Shown here piece after piece: positions 27,904 to 39,862 of a DNA stretch of 64,000 bases. The stretch is from Falsiroseomonas frigidaquae (GTDB taxonomy: Bacteria > Pseudomonadota > Alphaproteobacteria > Acetobacterales > Acetobacteraceae). Below the pieces are notes generated by a model that saw only the letters and a list, made by a program, of their open reading frames with translations, was not told the DNA's origin and ran no database searches. The stretch is taken from contig NZ_JAAVTX010000002.1 of the NCBI RefSeq assembly GCF_012163145.1, forward strand, positions 894,132 to 958,131. Direction: 5' to 3'. Every line of letters starts with the position of its first letter. The stretch's first letter is position 1. Position numbers and translations under genes: made by a program.

Positions 27904-28806
27904 GTGGCGATCGAGCTGAATGCGCGGGCGGAGCCTGCGCCAATCCCGCCTTCCGGCCGCTTCCGCGCGGGTGCCGCTCCGGGCGCGCTGCTCGGCGCGC
28001 GTGATGCGGTAGCGGGACTGCTGCTGGGCGCTTCACTGACCGCCTGCGGGCTGGTGCTGCTATGGCCTTCCGCGCTGAGCTCCGCCGGCTCGTCCTCGCC
28101 GCCCGTGGTGCTGGCGGTGGAGGATCGGGCGGCCGCGCTGGACGCCCTGCTCCGCCAGGCCAATGCCCAGCTTTCCGCGCACGCCGCGCGGGCCGAGGAG
28201 GCGGCACGGCAGGCGGAAGCCGCGGCACAGCGCCTGGCGCTTCTGGAGGCGCGTGGGCCGACCGCGGACCGCTTCCTCGCGGCGGCCTTGCTGTTGCAAT
28301 CCAGCGTCGCGACGCCGCGGCCCTGGCTGCGCGAATACCAAATGATGATGGCCCTCGCCCCGCCCGGCGCCGTGCCGCGCCCGCTGGCCGAGGTGCTGGC
28401 CAGCCATGCCGCGCGCGGCCTGCCGAGCGGGATGGAACTGCGGGACCGCTTCGCGATGCTGGCGCCGCAACTGCTGGACCGTGCGCCGCAGGAGGATTCG
28501 CTGGTGCAGCGCGCCGGGCTTGCCGCGCGCGGCGTGCTGTCCGGCATCGGCCTGGCGGCACCGCCGCAGGCCGGGCTTCAGGCCGCCGCGGTGGCCGGCA
28601 TTGCCGCGCAGCTTCGCCGGGGTGACCTGGCCGGGGCGGTGGCCGATGCCGGCGCGCTGGATCCCACCCTGCAACCGCTGCTGGCCGGCTGGCTGGCGCA
28701 GGCGCGGGCGCGCATGGCGGTGGAGCAGGCGGTGCGGGAAACGCTGCTGCTCGCGCTTGCCCCGCGCCCACGGCCGGAGCTGGCCGCGGCCACGCTGCGG
28801 AATTGA
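27904..28806 (+). CDS. Membrane-anchored coiled-coil protein, mitofilin (Mic60)-like
   Basis: The 300-residue protein starts at GTG 27904. It has one transmembrane segment (about residues 34-57), a strong coiled coil (about 71-115, DRAAALDALLRQANAQL onward) and a helical C-terminal part. In that part the stretch RPWLREYQMMMALAPPG, later MELRDRFAMLAPQLL, and finally RRGDLAGAVADAGAL with WLAQARARMAVEQAV follow the order I know from bacterial mitofilin-family proteins, which shape intracytoplasmic membranes in alphaproteobacteria. It lies alone here rather than beside hemD. It opens the cluster of membrane and periplasmic genes that continues to 36 kb. Confidence 0.6.
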   Translation: MAIELNARAEPAPIPPSGRFRAGAAPGALLGARDAVAGLLLGASLTACGLVLLWPSALSSAGSSSPPVVLAVEDRAAALDALLRQANAQLSAHAARAEEAARQAEAAAQRLALLEARGPTADRFLAAALLLQSSVATPRPWLREYQMMMALAPPGAVPRPLAEVLASHAARGLPSGMELRDRFAMLAPQLLDRAPQEDSLVQRAGLAARGVLSGIGLAAPPQAGLQAAAVAGIAAQLRRGDLAGAVADAGALDPTLQPLLAGWLAQARARMAVEQAVRETLLLALAPRPRPELAAATLRN

Positions 28807-28862
28807 AATCACGCCGCCCCCGCGGTGCCTGCTTCACGCCTGACTGACCCGGGAGTCCCAAC

Positions 28863-29930
28863 ATGGGCCGCCTCCGCAATCTCCTGATGGGCTTAGCCCT
28901 GGCCACCTGCACCGCAGCCACCGCAGCGCCGCCCGCCGCGGCGCAGGGCGTCATGCGCGACCGGCTGGTGATCATTTCCTCCACCTCCGCCGGCACCGTC
29001 GCCCGCATGCTGGCTGCCAGCTTCACCGAGCGCTTCGAGGGGGTGATGGAGCCGACGCGGCGCACCTTGCCGACCTCCGGCGTGCTGGACCTGTTCTGCG
29101 CCGGCGTCGGCCCACAGACCCCCGACATCGCCGTGGTGGTGCGCCGCATGCCGCGCAGCATGGTGGAGACCTGCGACACCAATGGCGTGCGCAACATCGT
29201 CGAGATGCGGATCGGGCTGAGCGCCGTGCTGCTGGCGGTGCGGCGTGGCGAGGGCACCACCAACCTCACCTCCCGCCAGGTGTGGGAAGCGCTGGCGGCG
29301 GAGCGCATCGTGGATGAGGAATTCGTGCCGAACCGCCGCGCGCTGTGGTCCGAGGTCTCCCCGGCGCTGCCGCGCATCGAGATCCGCGTGCTGGCGCCCA
29401 ATCTCGGCACCGGCACCAACGGGCTGTTCGAGGACATGATCCTGGAAGGCGGCTGCCGCGACGTGCGCGCGATCCGCCTGCTGTTCGAGGCCCAGTACCG
29501 CCGCGGCAAATGCGTGACGGTGCGGGAAGATGGCCGGGTGCAGCGGATGGGCGGGCTGGAGGTGCCGGCGGCGCTGCTGGCCAGCCCGCCGGGCACCGTC
29601 GGCGTCATCTCCTACGACCAGCTGCAGGCCAGCGGCGGCAACCTGGTGGCGCTGACGCTGGATGGCGTGCTGCCGACCCAGGGCTCGATCTACGCGCAGG
29701 ACTATGTCGCGACGCGCATCGTCTATGTCTACGCCAAGCGGCAGCACACGCGGCTGCGCGAAGGCGTCGGCGTGGTGCGCGGCATCCGCGAATTCCTGAA
29801 CGAGGCGACCAGCGAGGCGGCGTCCGGCCCTGGTGGCTACCTCTCCGTCACCGGCCTGGTGCCGCTGCCGCCGGCGGATCGCGCCGCGCAGCGCCGCACC
29901 GCCGACCGCATGACCCTGCTGTCCCGATGA
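28863..29930 (+). CDS. Orphan PstS-like periplasmic substrate-binding protein
   Basis: The 355-residue protein has a Sec signal peptide ending near AAPPAAAQG. The mature part follows the phosphate-binding PstS family: LVIISSTSAGTVARMLA, LDLFCAGVGPQTPDIAVVVRRM, and ALWSEVSPALPRIEIRVLAPN. Where phosphate binders carry a Ser-Gly-Thr-Arg loop, this protein reads LGTGTNGLFEDM, so the anion-contacting Arg appears to be missing. No pstC, pstA or pstB gene is in the window. It may bind another anion or work as a sensor. Its stop overlaps the next ATG. Confidence 0.75.
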   Translation: MGRLRNLLMGLALATCTAATAAPPAAAQGVMRDRLVIISSTSAGTVARMLAASFTERFEGVMEPTRRTLPTSGVLDLFCAGVGPQTPDIAVVVRRMPRSMVETCDTNGVRNIVEMRIGLSAVLLAVRRGEGTTNLTSRQVWEALAAERIVDEEFVPNRRALWSEVSPALPRIEIRVLAPNLGTGTNGLFEDMILEGGCRDVRAIRLLFEAQYRRGKCVTVREDGRVQRMGGLEVPAALLASPPGTVGVISYDQLQASGGNLVALTLDGVLPTQGSIYAQDYVATRIVYVYAKRQHTRLREGVGVVRGIREFLNEATSEAASGPGGYLSVTGLVPLPPADRAAQRRTADRMTLLSR

Positions 29931-30709
29931 ACCCGGCGCCGGAGACCCAACCCATGCCGCGCATCCAGCCCACCCGCCGTGCCGTCCGCCTCGCCAACTG
30001 GCTGCTTGCGGGAAGCCTGGCGCTGCCGCTGCTGGCCGGGGATGTGGCGCTGGCGCAGCCGGTGCCGCCATCGCCGCAGTCCTCGCCGCGCACCATGGTG
30101 ACGGTGCCCCTGCAGGATCTGTCGGAGGACGGCCTGGTGGACCGGGCGGGGGAGCTGTGGGGCAACGTGCTCGACATCTTCGGCTTCAGCACCGGCGCCA
30201 GCCACTTCATGCGCCGCCACGGCGCGCTGCGCCGCAACCGCGCACAGAATGACGACTTCACCTGGCTGATGGACATCGCCGGCTACAAGCTGAAGGAGAT
30301 CGAAAGCTCCATCGGCCTGATCCCGAGCTTCGGCCTCGCCTTCGGCCAGGCGCGGGAGCTGACGGAGGCGGATCGCGACTATGTCGAGCGGATGCTGGAC
30401 CGCCACGCGCAGCGCAACCCGGGCCCGATGGCGGTGATCCAGCGCACGATCGTGCGCGGCATCCTGGACGCGACGGAAATCGGCGGCTTCACGGTGGACA
30501 AGGTGGATGTGGATCTGTTCCCGCTGCCGCGCGTGAAGTTCGTGCTGACGCCGACGGATGCGCCGCTGGGCATCGAGGCGAGCCGCATCCTTCGGGCGAT
30601 CGACCGGCTGAATGCGCGGGTGCAGGGCATGGCGACGCGGCCGCAGGGCATGGACCTGCCGCTGGAGCCGACGGCGCCCTCGCTGCGTCCGGCGACACTG
30701 GCACATTGA
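29927..30709 (+). CDS. Exported protein of unknown function
   Basis: The 260-residue protein starts at ATG 29927, overlapping the upstream stop. ATG 29954, with GGAG 9 bases before it, is a good alternative. A signal peptide (LANWLLAGSLALPLLAGDVALA) is followed by a periplasmic domain. A well-defined central part reads NDDFTWLMDIAGYKLKEIES, then GLIPSFGLAFGQARELTEAD, and ends with a beta-rich stretch (TVDKVDVDLFPLPRVKFVLTP). I do not recognise the family. Its tight spacing with the PstS-like gene suggests that the two products act together. Confidence 0.65.
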   Translation: MNPAPETQPMPRIQPTRRAVRLANWLLAGSLALPLLAGDVALAQPVPPSPQSSPRTMVTVPLQDLSEDGLVDRAGELWGNVLDIFGFSTGASHFMRRHGALRRNRAQNDDFTWLMDIAGYKLKEIESSIGLIPSFGLAFGQARELTEADRDYVERMLDRHAQRNPGPMAVIQRTIVRGILDATEIGGFTVDKVDVDLFPLPRVKFVLTPTDAPLGIEASRILRAIDRLNARVQGMATRPQGMDLPLEPTAPSLRPATLAH

Positions 30710-30731
30710 ACGGCTGCGCAGGGGAATGGCG

Positions 30732-31166
30732 ATGAACGCTGGCGACCAGGATGGCCGCAGCCGCTTCGGCGAGTTGGTGAAGCTGCAGATGCAGGGCCGC
30801 CGCTTCCTCGACAGCAATGAGGAACGGCGCCTGCTGGAGGAAGGGCTGACGCGCTACGGGCTGCGGCTGGAAGATGCCAGCGGCATGCTGCGCGCGGCGG
30901 CGGAGCAGGATGAGATCGCGCTGGAAGGCGAGGTCGGCCGGTCCTCCGGCATGCTGCTGCGGACCATGGCGGACCGGCGCGGCCGGGTCGCGCGGCAGGA
31001 TTTCAACAAGGCCGTCGCCTTCTATCGCGCCCGCACGGGCGCCGGGCTTTCGGAAGCGGAAGCCGCGCGCCGCGTGAAGCGGCGGATGGAGGAGCTGGAG
31101 CTGGCGCCGAAGCCGCATGGCAGGCTGATCCGCACCCGGCGCTGGTGGCGCGCCATCGATGGTTGA
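30732..31166 (+). CDS. Helical cytosolic protein sharing a domain with the carbonic-anhydrase-like gene at 35.1 kb
   Basis: The 144-residue protein has AGGGGA 7 bases before ATG 30732. ATG 30726 is an alternative. It has no signal peptide or membrane segment and is highly charged. Its body (about residues 20-142) is clearly homologous to residues about 179-297 of the protein encoded at 35085-35993. Shared blocks are LLEEGLTRYGL / LLAEGLTRYGL, GRVARQDFNKAVAFYR / SRVARTDVARGVALYR, and LAPKPHGRLIRTRRWW / MAPRPDGLLRSTRWF. The same domain therefore occurs alone here and as a C-terminal fusion there. The function is unknown. Confidence 0.7.
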   Translation: MNAGDQDGRSRFGELVKLQMQGRRFLDSNEERRLLEEGLTRYGLRLEDASGMLRAAAEQDEIALEGEVGRSSGMLLRTMADRRGRVARQDFNKAVAFYRARTGAGLSEAEAARRVKRRMEELELAPKPHGRLIRTRRWWRAIDG

Positions 31167-31194
31167 TTCTCAATTCCTGCTGAAGGGTACTCGC

Positions 31195-31497
31195 ATGAAG
31201 ACGATCCTGGCGTTCCTGCTTCTGGCCGGCCTGGCGCTGTCGCCGCAGCATGCTGCGGCGCAGGCGACCATCACCACGCCTGCCATTCCTGCCGTCACGC
31301 TGCCTTCCGTGAACATTCCGGCAGTGCCGGCGCAGCGCATCACCGCGGGCCATGCCATGGCGCTCGGCGTCGGACTGTTCGCCGGCGCGGTTGCCGGGTC
31401 CGTGCTGATCCATGGCGGCGCGCTGGCCGCGGCCATCGGCGGCGCGGCCGGGCTGGCGGTGGGGCATTGGGCCTGGACGGAAGCCGAATACGACTGA
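31195..31497 (+). CDS. Small exported glycine-rich membrane protein
   Basis: The 100-residue protein starts at ATG 31195 with GAAGGG upstream. A signal peptide (KTILAFLLLAGLALSPQHAAA) is followed by a Thr/Pro/Val-rich linker. Then comes a 40-residue hydrophobic, glycine-rich segment with small residues spaced every three to four positions (GVGLFAGAVAGSVLIHGGALAAAIGGAAGLAVG), as in glycine-zipper proteins that insert or oligomerise in membranes. The end is acidic (AWTEAEYD). The function is unknown. It is the fifth gene of the co-directional run starting at 27.9 kb. Confidence 0.6.
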   Translation: MKTILAFLLLAGLALSPQHAAAQATITTPAIPAVTLPSVNIPAVPAQRITAGHAMALGVGLFAGAVAGSVLIHGGALAAAIGGAAGLAVGHWAWTEAEYD

Positions 31498-31512
31498 CCA
31501 CGCCAGCGCTGC

Positions 31513-32349
31513 GTGACGTTGCCCCGAGGGGTGGCCCAGGAGGGGCAATTGGAATTCTCGCTGCCACATCACATCGCGGCCATGCCCGGCTGGCTTGCAA
31601 TCATGCTGACGGCGGGCGTGCCGGTGCTGCTGGCGCTCGCCCTCGGCCACGCCATGCACCAGATCTTCACGCCGCAGGAATTCGCCGCCAACGCGCAGAT
31701 CGGCGCGGTGAAATACGGCTTCGTGGTGGAGATCTACGCGGTGGTCGCGGCGCTGGCGCTGGTCGGATCCTGGGACATCTACCAGACCGCGCGCGATACG
31801 GTGCAGCAGGAGACGTCCAACCTCTACATGTTGGCATTGGCGGTGGACAGTTTCGGCGGCGCGGACCTAGCCCCGGCGCGCGACGAGATGCGCACCGCCA
31901 TCCGGCTTTATGCCGGTGCCGTGGTGGCGAATGACTGGCCGGTCATGCAGGCGGGCCAGCCCGGCACCGGGTCCGAGGCCGCCTTCCAGCGCCTGGCGCG
32001 CGCCTTCCTCGATGTCGAGGGACGCAGCGATGGTCAGCACGCGCTGAAGCAGAATGTCGGTGACTGGCTGGCGGCGGTGGCGAAGGCGCGGATCGAGCGG
32101 CTTTCGGTGATGTCCCGCACCCTGTCAGGACTGATCTGGGCGCTGGTGCTGACCGTCTCCGTCGCCACCATCAGCTTCCAATGGTTCTTCGGCGGCGGCC
32201 ATGTGGCGCTGCACTACACCATGGGCGCCATCATCGCGCTGATCGTCGGCGCGGTGCTGCTGGTGTCGCTGAAGCTGGCCTTCCCCTTCGTCGGCGACCC
32301 TGCGCTGCTGACGCCGCGGCCGTATCTGTCGCTGATGGAGGTGACGTGA
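31513..32349 (+). CDS. DUF4239 (bestrophin-like) integral membrane protein
   Basis: The protein has up to 278 residues with four transmembrane segments, two near the N-terminus and two near the C-terminus, on either side of a soluble helical part. The stretches GFVVEIYAVVAALALVGSWD, RDTVQQETSNLYMLAL, AIRLYAGAVVANDWPVM and the terminal LKLAFPFVGDPALLTPRPY follow the DUF4239 pattern. Databases describe that family as bestrophin-like. Bestrophins are anion channels. In algae, bestrophin-like proteins are linked to bicarbonate delivery to the thylakoid lumen. The start is uncertain: GTG 31513, TTG 31549 (AGGAGGGG just upstream) and ATG 31582 are all in frame. Confidence 0.72.
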   Translation: MTLPRGVAQEGQLEFSLPHHIAAMPGWLAIMLTAGVPVLLALALGHAMHQIFTPQEFAANAQIGAVKYGFVVEIYAVVAALALVGSWDIYQTARDTVQQETSNLYMLALAVDSFGGADLAPARDEMRTAIRLYAGAVVANDWPVMQAGQPGTGSEAAFQRLARAFLDVEGRSDGQHALKQNVGDWLAAVAKARIERLSVMSRTLSGLIWALVLTVSVATISFQWFFGGGHVALHYTMGAIIALIVGAVLLVSLKLAFPFVGDPALLTPRPYLSLMEVT

Positions 32350-32357
32350 CGGTGCGA

Positions 32358-32960
32358 TCAATGCCCCCCGCCGCGCGGCGCGTGGCGCCAGCGCTGGAAG
32401 ACGAACAGCACCAGCGCGAACAGCCAGAAATTCAGCAGCGCCAGCATCCAGGCCAGCAGGTGGATGGCGTAGTGCAGCACCAGCGCCGTGCTGGCGGCCA
32501 GCAGCAGGAAGGCGCCGAGCGCGCGCAGCCGAGCCCAGCCGCGCCACCAGCGCAGCGCGGCCAGCGGGCCGGTCGCCAGCAGCAGCAGCGCCAGCCCGCC
32601 GGGCAGTGCGCCGAGGCCACCCTGGCGCAGCAGGTCGCGCGCATTCTGCAGCGTCGCCGTGCCGGGCAGGCCGTGCTGCAGCAGGAAGCCTGGCAGATCC
32701 AGGCTCCACGGTCCCTGCACGACGAAGATGCTGGACAGGCGGAAGCTCTCGCCATGCGGTACGGCCAGCAGCAGCGTGACGCCGCTGGCGATGCCGGCGC
32801 ACAGCGCCAGCACGTGCAGCAGTGGCACAGCCTCGGCATCCGCGGGCGCCAATGCGGCGTAGGCGACGCTCGCGGCGCGCAGCAGCGCCAGCACCAGCAG
32901 GATGGCGAGCGCAGCTTCCGCCCCGCCCCACAGGATCATCCCGATGCCACCATGTTCCAT
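32358..32960 (-). CDS. Multi-pass membrane protein of unknown function, opposite strand
   Basis: The 200-residue protein has about five hydrophobic segments (for example AALAILLVLALLRAASVAYAAL and LGAFLLLAASTALVLHYAIHLLAWMLALL) and an Arg/Gly/His-rich C-terminus. It lies on the minus strand inside an otherwise plus-strand cluster. It begins head-on to the next gene, with an overlap of 9 bases between the two start regions. I do not recognise a family. The clear membrane topology makes it a real gene rather than a shadow frame. Confidence 0.6.
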   Translation of the reverse strand: MEHGGIGMILWGGAEAALAILLVLALLRAASVAYAALAPADAEAVPLLHVLALCAGIASGVTLLLAVPHGESFRLSSIFVVQGPWSLDLPGFLLQHGLPGTATLQNARDLLRQGGLGALPGGLALLLLATGPLAALRWWRGWARLRALGAFLLLAASTALVLHYAIHLLAWMLALLNFWLFALVLFVFQRWRHAPRGGGH

Positions 32961-34019
32961 GCGCGGAAGCTAGGGCGCGCGGCCGGGGCAAGTAAGGGGT
33001 TTCGTGCCGCGGTTGCGCTGGCCCTGCTAATTTTCGCGCAGCCAGCCCTGGCGGCACCGATGGCAGTGCGCAACCCGGATGGAAGCTGCGGCCTGCGCGA
33101 CGTGCCGGAGGCGGCCTTGCAGGCCTGGGATTCGCATCTGGCGGCGGAGGCGGCGCGGCTGGAAGGTATGGCGCATCGCCTGCTGGCGGATGCCGCCGCC
33201 ATGCGCCTGGCCCCGGCGCGGGAGGCGGTGCCCGGCTTCGGCGACTGGGCCTATGGCTGGGTGCAGAGCTACATGACCGCTTATCGGGTGCTCGGCCTGG
33301 CGGCGCGCAACCTGGCGGAAGGCGTGGCGGAGGCGGATGCTTCCAGCCTGCCGGACCGCATCGCGCAGGGCATGGCCACCCCGGTGCGGGAGGCCTTCCG
33401 CACCCGCGTGCTGGAACCCGCCATCCCGCCCGCGGCGCTGGCGCTGGACCGCGCGCATGTGCGGGACGTGATCGTTGCGGAATGGCAGCTGGCGGTGACG
33501 GAGGTGGCGCGGCAGGCGCAGGCGCTGCCGCGCGTTTCGCTGATCGCCCCCGGCGCCGTCGCGGTGCCGCGGGTCGACCTGCTGGCCGCCGCGCGACCCC
33601 TGGCGGATTGGCAGGCGGTGGAGGCCGACCCAATGGCGCTGGTCGTGGAGGAAGGTGCCGAGACCAGCACGGTGTTCCTGCGTTCCATGCGGCCGATGGC
33701 GGCGCGGCTCGGCGCCGTGGCGCTGCGGGTCAGCGAGGCCGGGTCGATCGTCGCCACCAGCGGCGCCTTCGGCTACGCGCTGGGCGGCACGCCGGGCGTG
33801 GCGCTGGGTGTGGCGGGCGGCGTCGGCCTGTCCTGGGGCCTGGACTACGTGCTGAACCGCGTCGATTCCGCGCTGAACCGGGAGGCCTTCGAGGCGCAGG
33901 CGCTGGAAGCCATCGAACGTGCCGAACAGCGCCTGCCGGCGCAGGGGCGCCTGGCCGTGGCGGCGGCACTGGCAGCAAGACGCGGCGAATTGCGCGCCGA
34001 AAATCCGGGATGCGGCTGA
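32952..34019 (+). CDS. Exported protein of unknown function with a hydrophobic glycine-rich segment
   Basis: From ATG 32952 the protein has 355 residues with a signal peptide (AAVALALLIFAQPALA). The body is helical and alanine-rich, with an aromatic block GFGDWAYGWVQSYMTAYRVLG. A glycine-rich hydrophobic stretch near residue 280 (GAFGYALGGTPGVALGVAGGVGLSWGLDYVL) could insert in a membrane. The C-terminus is a charged helix. I do not recognise the family. The start lies inside the head of the divergent 32358-32960 gene. No other in-frame start precedes the signal peptide core. Confidence 0.6.
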   Translation: MFHARKLGRAAGASKGFRAAVALALLIFAQPALAAPMAVRNPDGSCGLRDVPEAALQAWDSHLAAEAARLEGMAHRLLADAAAMRLAPAREAVPGFGDWAYGWVQSYMTAYRVLGLAARNLAEGVAEADASSLPDRIAQGMATPVREAFRTRVLEPAIPPAALALDRAHVRDVIVAEWQLAVTEVARQAQALPRVSLIAPGAVAVPRVDLLAAARPLADWQAVEADPMALVVEEGAETSTVFLRSMRPMAARLGAVALRVSEAGSIVATSGAFGYALGGTPGVALGVAGGVGLSWGLDYVLNRVDSALNREAFEAQALEAIERAEQRLPAQGRLAVAAALAARRGELRAENPGCG

Positions 34020-34675
34020 TGCGATACCTGATTCCACTGCTGCTGCTGCTGCTGGCCACGCCGCTGCAGGCGCAGCCCGCCCTGCTGGCGCTGGCGGGGG
34101 CGGAACTGCTGCTGCCGCATCTGGCGCGGTCCGCGCCCTTTCCGCGTGCCTTGGCGGTGACGCAGGCGCTGACCGCAGGTGAGGCTGATTGGCAGGCCTT
34201 GCTGGCGCCGCTCGATGCCGTGGCGGAACAGGGTGCGCCGCTGCCGCGCCAGCTGGCGGCCAGCTTCCCCGTCGCCGCGCGCGCCGCGGTGCTGGCCGAG
34301 ATGGGCCACCCGGCGGAGGCTGGGCGGCTGTGGCACTGGATGGCCGGCGCCATGCGGCTCGGCGCCCGTTTCGGCGGCGGCGAAAGCCCGGCATTGGCCG
34401 CCACCGAGGCGGCGGAGGTGCTGCTGGGCCGCGGAGAGCTGCGCGCCGCGGACCAGGCGCTGGCGACGCTCGTCGGCCCGGCGGCGGCGGCGCTGCTGAC
34501 CTGGCGGCAGGGTTTGGCCCGCCGGCTGCTGATGGAGGATGCTGCCACTGCGCTTGCCGCGCTGGCCACGGCGCGCGCGGCGCCGGGGCACACCGCCGCC
34601 CGCACGGCCCCCGCGCGCACGGTCCCCGCACCCACGGTCCCCGCACCCACGGCCCGGGCGGCCAGGGCGCCATGA
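34019..34675 (+). CDS. Exported helical-repeat protein, weakly mitofilin-like
   Basis: The 218-residue protein starts at ATG 34019, overlapping the upstream stop. ATG 34010 adds three residues. A signal peptide (YLIPLLLLLLATPLQA) is followed by alpha-helical repeats. The order SAPFPRALAVTQALTAGE, LPRQLAASFPVAARAAVLAEM and LLGRGELRAADQALATL resembles the C-terminal part of mitofilin-family proteins, as does the first gene of this cluster. The last 25 residues come from four 15-bp repeats giving (A-R/P-T-x-P)n. The function is unknown, and the likeness to mitofilin is from memory of the family, not from a search. Confidence 0.55.
   Translation: MRYLIPLLLLLLATPLQAQPALLALAGAELLLPHLARSAPFPRALAVTQALTAGEADWQALLAPLDAVAEQGAPLPRQLAASFPVAARAAVLAEMGHPAEAGRLWHWMAGAMRLGARFGGGESPALAATEAAEVLLGRGELRAADQALATLVGPAAAALLTWRQGLARRLLMEDAATALAALATARAAPGHTAARTAPARTVPAPTVPAPTARAARAP
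34602..34661 (+). repeat. Four 15-bp tandem repeats in the 3' end of the preceding exported protein gene
   Basis: Units begin at 34602, 34617, 34632 and 34647 (consensus about gcacggtccccgcac). Each encodes five residues rich in Ala, Pro and Thr. The length is a multiple of three, so copy-number change would keep the frame. Confidence 0.8.
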
Positions 34676-35088
34676 GCGCGGCGCGCTTCAACTGGCAGGG
34701 CGTGGTGGCGCGCGGGTTGTTCAGCCTGTTCGTGGTCTTCGCGATCTACAACCCTTCCGGCTATTCCTACCTGCACTGGGTGCTGCAGGGCTTCGCGTGG
34801 TTCTGGGCCAAGCTCGCCATCGGCGCCTTGCTCGCGATGATCGTTCTGATGCTGTGGCGCACCACGCGCGGCGTGCTGAAGCCGCGCGGCATGGTGCTGG
34901 TGGCGCTGTTCTGCCTCGGCGGCGGCGTGACACTGGCGAGGCTGACCGACACCTCCATCCTGCATCCCGGCTCGCTGCTGATCGGCGCGCTGCTGACCCT
35001 GGCGGCGCTGTTCACCGCCGGCCTGTCCTATTCCCATGTCGATCATCGCCTGGGCGGCATCAGCCATACGGAGGAAGTGGCCAAGTGA
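34672..35088 (+). CDS. Four-helix membrane protein, DUF6524-like
   Basis: The 138-residue protein overlaps the upstream gene by ATGA. It has four transmembrane segments and the opening FNWQGVVARGLFSLFVVFAIYNPSGYSYLHW. The NPSGYSY motif is the hallmark of a small membrane family I recall as DUF6524. The soluble tail ends SYSHVDHRLGGISHTEE. The function is unknown. It is followed, with a GTGA overlap, by the carbonic-anhydrase-like gene, so the two are translationally coupled. Confidence 0.65.
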   Translation: MSAARFNWQGVVARGLFSLFVVFAIYNPSGYSYLHWVLQGFAWFWAKLAIGALLAMIVLMLWRTTRGVLKPRGMVLVALFCLGGGVTLARLTDTSILHPGSLLIGALLTLAALFTAGLSYSHVDHRLGGISHTEEVAK

Positions 35089-35993
35089 CCCCGGTACCGA
35101 GCAAGGCGGATGCCTTCGTGGTGAGCTGCATCGACCCGCGGCTGGTCGATGACGTGACCTGGCTGATGGATTCCGTGGGCCGCACCGACCGCTATTCCGA
35201 ATTCCGCATCGCCGGCGCCGCGCTCGCCGTGGTGGACCCGGCGCGGCCTGCCTGGGGCCAGGCGCTGTGGGAGAATCTGGCAGCCTCCCGCCAACTGCAC
35301 GGCGTGCGCAAGGTGGTGTTCGTGAACCACCGCGATTGCGGCGCCATGGACCTGTTCGCCGGCCGCCGCCTGTCGCTGGATCGCGCCGATGAGCTGGCCC
35401 AGCACCAGGCGGTGCTGGACCGGGCCGCCGCCGGCGTGCTGTCCCGCCACCCGGACATGCAGGTGGAGCTGCGGCTGATGGAGCTGGATGGCCGCTCCAC
35501 CCTGCTGCCCTGCGCCGCCTGCGCGGCCGGTGCCCCGCAGGCGGGCGCCCTGCGGGCGGAGGCGGTGACCCCGCCCGGCTTCGCCGACCTCGTCCGGCTG
35601 CGCCTGCGCGACGGCCCGCTGGCGCCGGAGACGGAACGCGCCCTGCTGGCGGAGGGCCTGACCCGCTACGGCCTGACCGCGCGGGAAGCCCGCGCCGCGC
35701 TGGCCGCCGCCGCCGCCGCGCGTGGCGAGCCGACCGGCACCGCCGCGACGCGGGAGGTGCTGGCCTATCTCCGCAGCCGGGCCGATGCCGGCAGCCGCGT
35801 CGCCCGCACCGATGTGGCGCGCGGCGTTGCGCTGTACCGGCGACTATCCCCCGGCCTGCCCCCGGCCGAGGCCGAGCGCCGCACCGCCGTGCTGATGGAG
35901 GGCGCCGGGATGGCGCCGCGGCCGGATGGGCTGCTGCGCTCCACGCGCTGGTTCAATCGGATGGCCGCTCCCCCCGCGCCGCGCCCGGCGTAA
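35085..35993 (+). CDS. Beta-carbonic-anhydrase-like protein fused to a helical domain
   Basis: The 302-residue cytosolic protein starts at GTG 35085. The N-terminal part shows the zinc set of beta-type carbonic anhydrases: Cys15, Asp17 and Arg19 in CIDPR, then His82 and Cys85 in NHRDCG, with FRIAGAA in the place of the usual RNAGN loop. The catalytic Asp-Arg pair is thus retained. A second PCAAC motif follows at about residue 144. Residues about 179-297 are a separate domain homologous to the stand-alone protein at 30732-31166. I know of no described protein with this fusion. CO2/bicarbonate chemistry is plausible but not shown. The last 41 bases overlap the convergent AraC gene. Confidence 0.72.
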   Translation: MTPVPSKADAFVVSCIDPRLVDDVTWLMDSVGRTDRYSEFRIAGAALAVVDPARPAWGQALWENLAASRQLHGVRKVVFVNHRDCGAMDLFAGRRLSLDRADELAQHQAVLDRAAAGVLSRHPDMQVELRLMELDGRSTLLPCAACAAGAPQAGALRAEAVTPPGFADLVRLRLRDGPLAPETERALLAEGLTRYGLTAREARAALAAAAAARGEPTGTAATREVLAYLRSRADAGSRVARTDVARGVALYRRLSPGLPPAEAERRTAVLMEGAGMAPRPDGLLRSTRWFNRMAAPPAPRPA

Positions 35994-39361: not shown

Positions 39362-39862
39362 TCAGTAGCCGCGGCGGCCGCGGCCGGGGCCATCGGAGGG
39401 GTCGCTGTCGGTCAGCCCGCTGTTGCGGCGGTACACGCGGGACCAGCCACGGCCGCGGCCGGGACCATCGGAAGGGTCGCTATCCGTGATGCCGGTGCCG
39501 CGATTGACGGGCGCGCGGTAGGAGGTGCCGCGGCCGCGACCGGGCGCATCATTCGGGTCGCTGTCGGAGACGCCGGTGTTCCGGCGATAGCCGCCACGGC
39601 CGAAGCCGGGGGAATCGTTCGGATCGCTGTCGGTGACGCCGCTGCCGCGATGGCCACCGCGGCCGTTGCCGGGCGCATCGGACGGGTCGCTGTCGCTGAT
39701 CCCGGTGCCACGGCGAACCTGCACCGGCGGCGGGGCGTAGTAGACGGGGCCCTGCTGCGGCACGCAGGCCGCGGCGGGAAGCACGCCGACCATGGCGGCC
39801 AGGCGCAGCACGAAAAGCCGGCGGCGTGTCTGCGGCGGCTTACCCTCCGGTTCGTCGGTCAC
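39362..39862 (-). CDS. Lipoprotein-like protein with five DSDPxDxPGxGRG repeats
   Basis: The 166-residue protein opens with an RRRLFVLRLAAMVGVLPAAAC segment that could be a Tat- or Sec-type lipoprotein signal with the lipid Cys near residue 33. The rest is five near-identical units of about 22-27 residues with the core G-x-T/S-D-S-D-P-x-D-x-P-G-x-G-R-G, separated by short basic linkers. The Asp-Ser-Asp-Pro-x-Asp cores look suited to Ca2+ binding. I recall similar TDSDP units at the ends of other alphaproteobacterial exported proteins, but no function. Confidence 0.7.
   Translation of the reverse strand: MTDEPEGKPPQTRRRLFVLRLAAMVGVLPAAACVPQQGPVYYAPPPVQVRRGTGISDSDPSDAPGNGRGGHRGSGVTDSDPNDSPGFGRGGYRRNTGVSDSDPNDAPGRGRGTSYRAPVNRGTGITDSDPSDGPGRGRGWSRVYRRNSGLTDSDPSDGPGRGRRGY

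Follow-up and report, generated by a model that had tools for sequence, protein, structure and literature searches.

In the bacterial DAB system (DabA-DabB), a membrane partner is combined with a carbonic anhydrase (CA)-type protein. A channel plus a CA-type protein is also the make-up of the algal proteins BST1-3 with CAH3, according to PMC6708349. Further systems with recognisable relatives of the genes described below are the bestrophin channels, the SAR11-type phosphate-binding protein PstS, the alphaproteobacterial mitofilin Mic60 and the Mla phospholipid pathway (MlaA, MlaFE). These were compared with a cluster of eleven open frames, g1 to g11, at positions 27,904-35,993 of a 64,000-nucleotide stretch of the Falsiroseomonas frigidaquae genome (the window). 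The parts of the cluster belong to known families or are cousins of them; the system as a whole is a member of no known one tested. No described system of such make-up was found in the open-access literature (subscription papers lay mostly outside this survey), in agreement with the initial annotation of the window. The cluster is shown to be one inherited module with a core of g1/g9-type, g2, g3, g4, g7, g8 and g10 proteins and a soluble protein, u161, whose gene adjoins the others in many relatives and is unlinked in the window genome. In Acetobacteraceae the module regularly includes the bestrophin-like g6 and g11, the fusion of CA and g4, as well. That the genes form one functional module is considered very likely.

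The conservation of the cluster was determined from 100 genomes, including that of the window (G000), which were searched with DUF6524 (the g10 family) and g11; 20 regions were taken from 17 genomes. The cluster was recovered in 14 loci of 12 genomes, having first been detected using the window proteins alone. These 14 relative loci were the ones selected for matching, and the profiles used for member counts were built from them. In all 14, g1, g2, g3, g4, g6, g8, g10 and g11, the last with its second g4 domain, kept the same order and orientation. A g7 gene was present in 13, on the opposite strand in every case, and g5 and g9 were each present in 12. The genes therefore stay together rather than being scattered, which was the neighbourhood comparison proposed in the initial annotation. 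The ratio of nonsynonymous to synonymous substitution rates (dN/dS), determined against three relatives, was 0.12-0.49 for each of the eleven genes (0.25-0.36 for g1). Gene counts came from six-frame profile searches; the tables of the gene caller, which assigned wrong strands in some GC-rich loci, served only to choose deep-locus proteins for family scans. Of the other six regions, L060 held a divergent cluster, L069 a reduced version, and the remaining four (L068 and L070-L072) single relatives. DUF6524 was also seen at L068, L071 and L072, where other cluster genes went undetected, and the g10 family therefore exists outside this system as well.

When named genomes were scanned with the g3 profile, 34 loci were recovered from Falsiroseomonas, Roseomonas, Neoroseomonas, Humitalea, Stella and metagenome-assembled genomes; the loci overlap in species and the genomes are not independent. 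The core was complete and ordered in 25 of them, six lay on contigs ending inside the cluster, with genes missing accordingly, and three (Stella) held only g1-g3 or g2-g3. Where g9 was absent, its profile fell on g1 and the order flag then counted a misorder. Bestrophin and CA were both present in 25 of the 34, and g3 adjoined g2 in all 34 of these loci, which had been found with g3 itself.

Within the family, g3 was detected in 18 of 299 genomes, and the distribution of the system is therefore patchy. The g4 domain was found in nine of 385 class genomes in an even draw, at most 10 candidates being scored per genome in the class-wide searches, and in G000 only in a phylum-wide draw of 398 genomes. 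Two cluster copies each were present in G004 and G014, and the flanks differed around cluster copies in relatives; a single copy was found in the environmental type strain Falsiroseomonas tokyonensis K-20. In a midpoint-rooted FastTree phylogeny of g2 and g3, the Stella copies L097 and L103 fell within Acetobacteraceae and the Stella copy L106 fell with G376; this split placement, for which support values were not weighed, suggests transfer. Carriage on plasmids was rejected, as no plasmid match was found for g8. A link to phototrophy was likewise rejected: reaction-centre genes (PF00124) were present in 15 of 16 genus genomes, among them the five without the cluster, and were absent from the cluster-bearing G010, G020 and G048.

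Varying sets of g1/g9, g2, g3, g4, g7, g8 and g10 were found in stretches from G094, G109, G125, G240, G376, G409 and G438 and at a second locus of G010; some of these stretches were cut by contig ends, and G332 provided a fragment only. In the stretches of the seven deep-branching genomes, a CA was found in one (G409) and a bestrophin in three (G125, G409 and G438), so neither looks like a core member. A g7 gene was also found in deep loci L119 and L121-L126, on either strand. The second G010 locus (L126, contig C8, 9351-11785) is a divergent second cluster in which a pair of DUF2061-tailed membrane proteins separates g4 from g1; neither a bestrophin nor a CA gene was found in that stretch. 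Type II secretion-like genes (T2SSF, secretin) adjoin the g4/g7 locus of G109 at L122:10650-13500 and are possibly mere neighbours.

The initial annotation counted the eleven genes correctly and missed both the g4/g11 duplication and a twelfth gene that is unlinked. The latter, u161, was defined as a 161-residue protein of L125, and its relatives lie immediately after g11 in several loci. Its profile (A8) was found in 12 of the 14 genomes with the cluster (13) or a reduced version of it (G094), and in none of 86 others. The copy in the window genome is a 127-aa gene at C12:858733-859089, approximately 63 kb from g1, among genes that look unrelated by eye; u161 is also distant from the cluster in G001-G003. 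It was found in six of the 385 class genomes, all within the nine carrying the g4 domain. A8 was built from cluster-near loci, and the informative part of the result is the absence elsewhere and the unlinked presence in G000-G003. The Fisher values of 8.7e-14 and 1.9e-11 are indicative only, because the genomes are not independent. Pfam was silent on u161 except for DUF4429 at E 0.04 in one of 17 members.

The layout of the cluster in the window is given in the table, and the ten plus-strand genes, single opposite gene and start/stop overlaps were located as initially described. ATGA overlaps occur at g2/g3 and g9/g10, a GTGA overlap at g10/g11 and one of 8 bp at g4/g5. At 32952-32960, g7 and g8 share 9 bp of their start regions in a head-to-head arrangement. 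The two genes also overlap in the close relatives L053-L055 and are separated by a gap in L056.

Table. The eleven genes of the cluster, with positions in the window
Gene	Position	Strand	Product
g1	27904-28806	+	membrane-anchored coiled-coil protein, distant relative of mitofilin (Mic60) C-terminus
g2	28863-29930	+	PstS-like periplasmic binding protein
g3	29927-30709	+	orphan secreted protein, directly after g2
g4	30726-31166	+	orphan soluble helical domain, core member
g5	31159-31497	+	small Gly/Ala-rich membrane protein, optional; alternative start 31195
g6	31513-32349	+	DUF4239 protein, predicted bestrophin fold, probable anion pore
g7	32358-32960	-	orphan protein, five hydrophobic segments
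g8	32952-34019	+	orphan, signal-like N-terminus, Gly-rich stretch at C-terminus, core member
g9	34010-34675	+	second mitofilin-like secreted protein, optional; alternative start 34019
g10	34672-35088	+	DUF6524 small membrane protein, core member
g11	35085-35993	+	beta-CA-fold domain fused to second g4 domain

Hydropathy analysis revealed a single N-terminal hydrophobic segment in g1, signal-like N-termini in g3, g5, g8 and g9, multiple hydrophobic segments in g5, g6, g7 and g10, and none in g4 and g11. The N-terminus of g2 was below the threshold and was recognised as signal-like by eye only. Pfam and PADLOC scans covered ten of the eleven products, g5 being left out. The matches above the Pfam cut-off were g2 to PF12849 (62.6 bits), g6 to PF14023 (115.8 against 32) and g10 to PF20134 (DUF6524, 93.3); the remaining scanned products had no Pfam family over the cut-off. 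NCBIfam gave just a sub-threshold PstS match among the scanned products, PADLOC gave no match, and the best PHROGs match (g5 scanned, g6 left out) was no better than E 0.012.

The PstS-like kinship of g2 is direct. In addition to the PF12849 match, comparison of the g2 profile with 9jwy, a phosphate-binding protein of SAR11, gave E 1.3e-59, with almost the full chain aligned. Seven phosphate ligands have been published for SAR11 PstS, in which a Pro stands in place of a ligand Arg (PMC12421899). The window g2 has the same Arg-replacing Pro and keeps Ser/Thr or Gly at six of these seven positions; among the 26 rows of the alignment, Ser/Thr (or Gly at 174) was present in 15 to 23, depending on the position. 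Compared with SAR11 PstS, g2 differs by four Cys residues that are invariant in 26/26 rows, by a Val at Ser83 and by a score against the NCBIfam PstS model far below its cut-off (41.1 against 206.6 bits). The cluster differs too, with no PstCAB or other ABC (ATP-binding cassette) family among the ten products scanned by Pfam. For the neighbouring g3, no family over the cut-off was found in Pfam or NCBIfam.

For g1 and g9, the mitofilin claim held as kinship through relatives. The g1 profile matched L119:11538-12506 and the g9 profile matched L124:12732-14375, both of which are themselves above the PF09731 cut-off of 27.4 bits, the two scores of relatives being 33.3 and 31.1 bits. These relatives provide the likeness to alphaproteobacterial Mic60; the difference is that g1 and g9 fall below PF09731 detection. 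The match between g9 and g1 was weak (hhalign probability 31%, E 5e-4). The usual mic60 gene context also differs from that of g1 and g9 here.

The bestrophin-like nature of g6 (DUF4239), which had also been proposed initially, agreed with both PF14023 and the predicted structure, which matched solved bestrophins (KpBest, plant VCCN1 and animal BEST1/2). The sequence identity to these structures was 8%, the sequence-profile search with g6 found no bestrophin, and DUF4239 is a separate Pfam family. The model is all-helical, and the fold-comparison tool warns that high Z scores are possibly unspecific for such models. The g6 protein is probably an anion pore. Extra matches to the g6 profile were seen just past the cluster at L062:11865-12701, L056:10885-11718 and L064:4900-5922.

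The C-terminal half of g11 proved to be a second g4 (42% identity, E 7e-17; profile-profile probability 99.8%). In L123, a SnoaL-like domain (26.2 bits, slightly under the cut-off of 27) comes after a g4 domain. Since the small soluble g4 domain occurs alone in every complete locus and is also variously fused, it is best read as a docking module for enzymes. The other half of g11 scored below the cut-off for both PF20393 (22.3 against 30 bits) and PF00484 (12.2 against 25.7). The predicted g11 structure, whose list of fold matches was filled by this half, bore out a beta-CA fold, to which carbonyl sulfide (COS) hydrolase was structurally equally close. The zinc set noted initially was also upheld, with Cys, His and Cys in 25, 24 and 25 of the 25 covering rows and the Asp-Arg dyad in 25/25; one row has Tyr instead of the zinc His. 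A single-sequence search of solved structures with g11 gave weak beta-CA matches (best E 0.01), and the g11 profile gave none at 0.1. Fold and zinc set thus liken g11 to the beta-CAs and their COS/CS2-hydrolase cousins; it differs in lying below both Pfam cut-offs and in the fusion to g4. Extra stand-alone CA-like frames were observed upstream of g1 at L065:13892-14773 (-), L081:7175-8452 (-) and L093:7174-7599, L065 and L093 being from one genome. Among the other orphans, g8 has ten invariant columns in 26 rows and no sequence relative in the PDB at E 1 or better. Profiles of g3, g4, g6, g8, g10 and u161 gave no useful sequence match to solved structures.

The recurrent partners of the module are of phosphate and lipid type: PstS, the sodium/phosphate (Na/Pi) cotransporter, MlaA and an ABC ATPase-MlaE permease fusion. 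MlaA was found near the module in eight of the 34 named loci (L085, L089, L090, L092, L098, L099, L101 and L102) and in the deep loci L122, L124, L126, L148 and L149; Pfam confirmed it in all eight loci run (L085, L092, L098, L122, L124, L126, L148 and L149). The eight loci compare with approximately 0.25 expected, which is a rough uniform-placement estimate, and represent about five arrangements. Twenty-five genomes had one to four MlaA copies, mostly one or two, and the window genome has two elsewhere. A fused CA-g4-MlaA protein (L067/L089/L090/L092) was considered and rejected: in the translated L090 and L092 the MlaA gene lies in another frame, with its own start and a signal-like N-terminus. 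Pfam identified the ABC-MlaE fusion within the modules of G094 and G438. Homologues were recognised in G376, close to the module, and in G409, adjoining g3. In G109 a homologue was found with mitofilin-like and u370 genes on a separate contig. An ATPase-permease fusion with a u370 partner is unlike the textbook Mla operon. The order g2-g3-Na/Pi cotransporter was the same in G376 (L124) and Stella vacuolata (L106), and the cotransporter was also near the cluster in L104 and L099; the assignment is by Pfam for L104, L106 and L124 and by homology only for L099. A ParA-like ATPase was present in L123, L124 and L149.

The best explanation for these data is an envelope-spanning complex, although the scheme in full is put forward tentatively, at somewhat less than an even chance. 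The scaffold would be formed by the mitofilin-like g1 and g9, which would be either anchored in the inner membrane or exported across it. In the periplasm, g2 and its partner g3 would capture a phosphate-type anion, candidate ligands being phosphate, an organophosphate or a phospholipid head group. The inner-membrane part would consist of g7, g8 and g10, and the inner face of cytoplasmic g4 and u161, with the g4 domain as a plug to which enzymes dock. In this lineage, g6 may provide a pore through which anions pass passively; at the inner mouth of this pore, the beta-CA domain of g11, once docked, may adjust HCO3-/H+ or a related small substrate. Other lineages would rely on the ABC-MlaE transporter, MlaA or the Na/Pi cotransporter for transport.

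Several observations weigh against such a complex. At ligand position Ser83, the g2 proteins of the window and of two close relatives have Val, and other phosphate ligands are lost in several g2 rows; phosphate may therefore not be the ligand. Neither g1 nor g9 matched PF09731 in the Pfam scan. No relative of MlaA or of the Na/Pi cotransporter was found in the 64-kb window at E 1e-5. The window genome has no full-length ABC-MlaE match, and a copy elsewhere in it was rejected since the best match covers the ATP-binding part only (plain MlaE genes were not searched). No u161 relative was found within the window at E 1e-5, and u161 is missing in G048 and in G008, whose cluster is truncated at the end of a contig. 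The Stella g1-g3 genes lie apart from the rest of the cluster. That g7, g8 and g10 would form one complex with g2/g3 is suggested by association only.

A related possibility is a machine akin to the Mla pathway that moves phospholipid where the inner and outer membranes are held in contact by a mitofilin scaffold, with g2 as a sensor of head groups or phosphate. The MlaA genes adjoining the module in several lineages, the fused ABC-MlaE in deep versions and the mitofilin-type proteins are consistent with this, and the first two are also the likeness to the Mla pathway. The likeness ends in the window, which has no MlaA relative, and in the products scanned, among which no MlaE or MCE-domain family was recognised. 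As 26 of the 34 named loci also lack an MlaA relative in their stretch, and bestrophin and CA are left unexplained, dedicated lipid trafficking is considered unlikely. A wider form, in which mitofilin-type scaffolds at a contact site join the binding protein, anion channel and docking domain and sister lineages add inter-membrane lipid transport, is doubtful.

The initial annotation favoured a bicarbonate site, in which the bestrophin-like pore would conduct HCO3- and the adjacent CA domain interconvert CO2 and HCO3-. A bestrophin fold and a beta-CA fold with conserved zinc set do occur in one cluster, together in 25 of the 34 named loci, and the algal BST1-3 with CAH3 offer a precedent (PMC6708349). 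By sequence, however, the CA of g11 sits in the cytoplasm rather than beyond the pore on the far side of the membrane; having no N-terminal hydrophobic segment and being fused to g4, it does not resemble a lumenal CAH3-type partner. No DabB-like family was found among the ten products scanned by Pfam. Moreover, CA and pore were not found in the fetched stretches of several deep versions that keep the rest, one CA row has lost the zinc His, no link to phototrophy was seen, and both the binding protein (PstS-type) and the partners point to phosphate or lipid. The claim was thus unsupported or left undecided. A bicarbonate role is possible for the g6-g11 pair and does not explain the core; as an account of the whole cluster it is rather improbable.

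An envelope complex that reads phosphate or another anion and signals through g4-docked enzymes and the ParA-like ATPase was also considered. It would fit the presence of a binding protein but of no dedicated permease among the scanned products, the fusion of the soluble docking domain to CA-like or SnoaL-like partners, and the ParA-like gene of L123, L124 and L149. However, no kinase, cyclase or regulator domain was found in ten of the eleven products, and an anion-channel fold is odd as part of a sensor, making this quite unlikely. Least probable is a mobile defence or stress island lying near transporters by chance, which the patchy distribution (18/299), the second copies in some genomes and the differing flanks might suggest, but which is at odds with the absence of PADLOC matches and of nuclease or toxin-like families in ten of the eleven products, the lack of a plasmid match for g8, and a long ordered cluster under purifying selection.

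Outside the cluster, the window contains a 166-aa lipoprotein-like frame at 39362-39862 (-), in which repeats following the pattern G(I/V)(T/S)DSDPxDxPGxGRG occur about five times. The final base of the window is the end of contig C12 (958,131 bases).

These results place six families without an assigned function (g3, g4, g7, g8, g10/DUF6524 and u161) in one common context, as partners in an association that can be tested. For the DUF4239 protein there is now a predicted structure in agreement with solved bestrophins, and the g4 domain could serve as a convenient handle for isolating the whole complex. Candidate partners are also available for mitofilin-type proteins that occur outside mitochondria, with a bearing on the origin of the mitochondrial contact-site machinery. 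If the wider contact-site form is real, it would be a new envelope system with exchangeable transport and enzyme modules, built on scaffolds related to the organiser of mitochondrial cristae.

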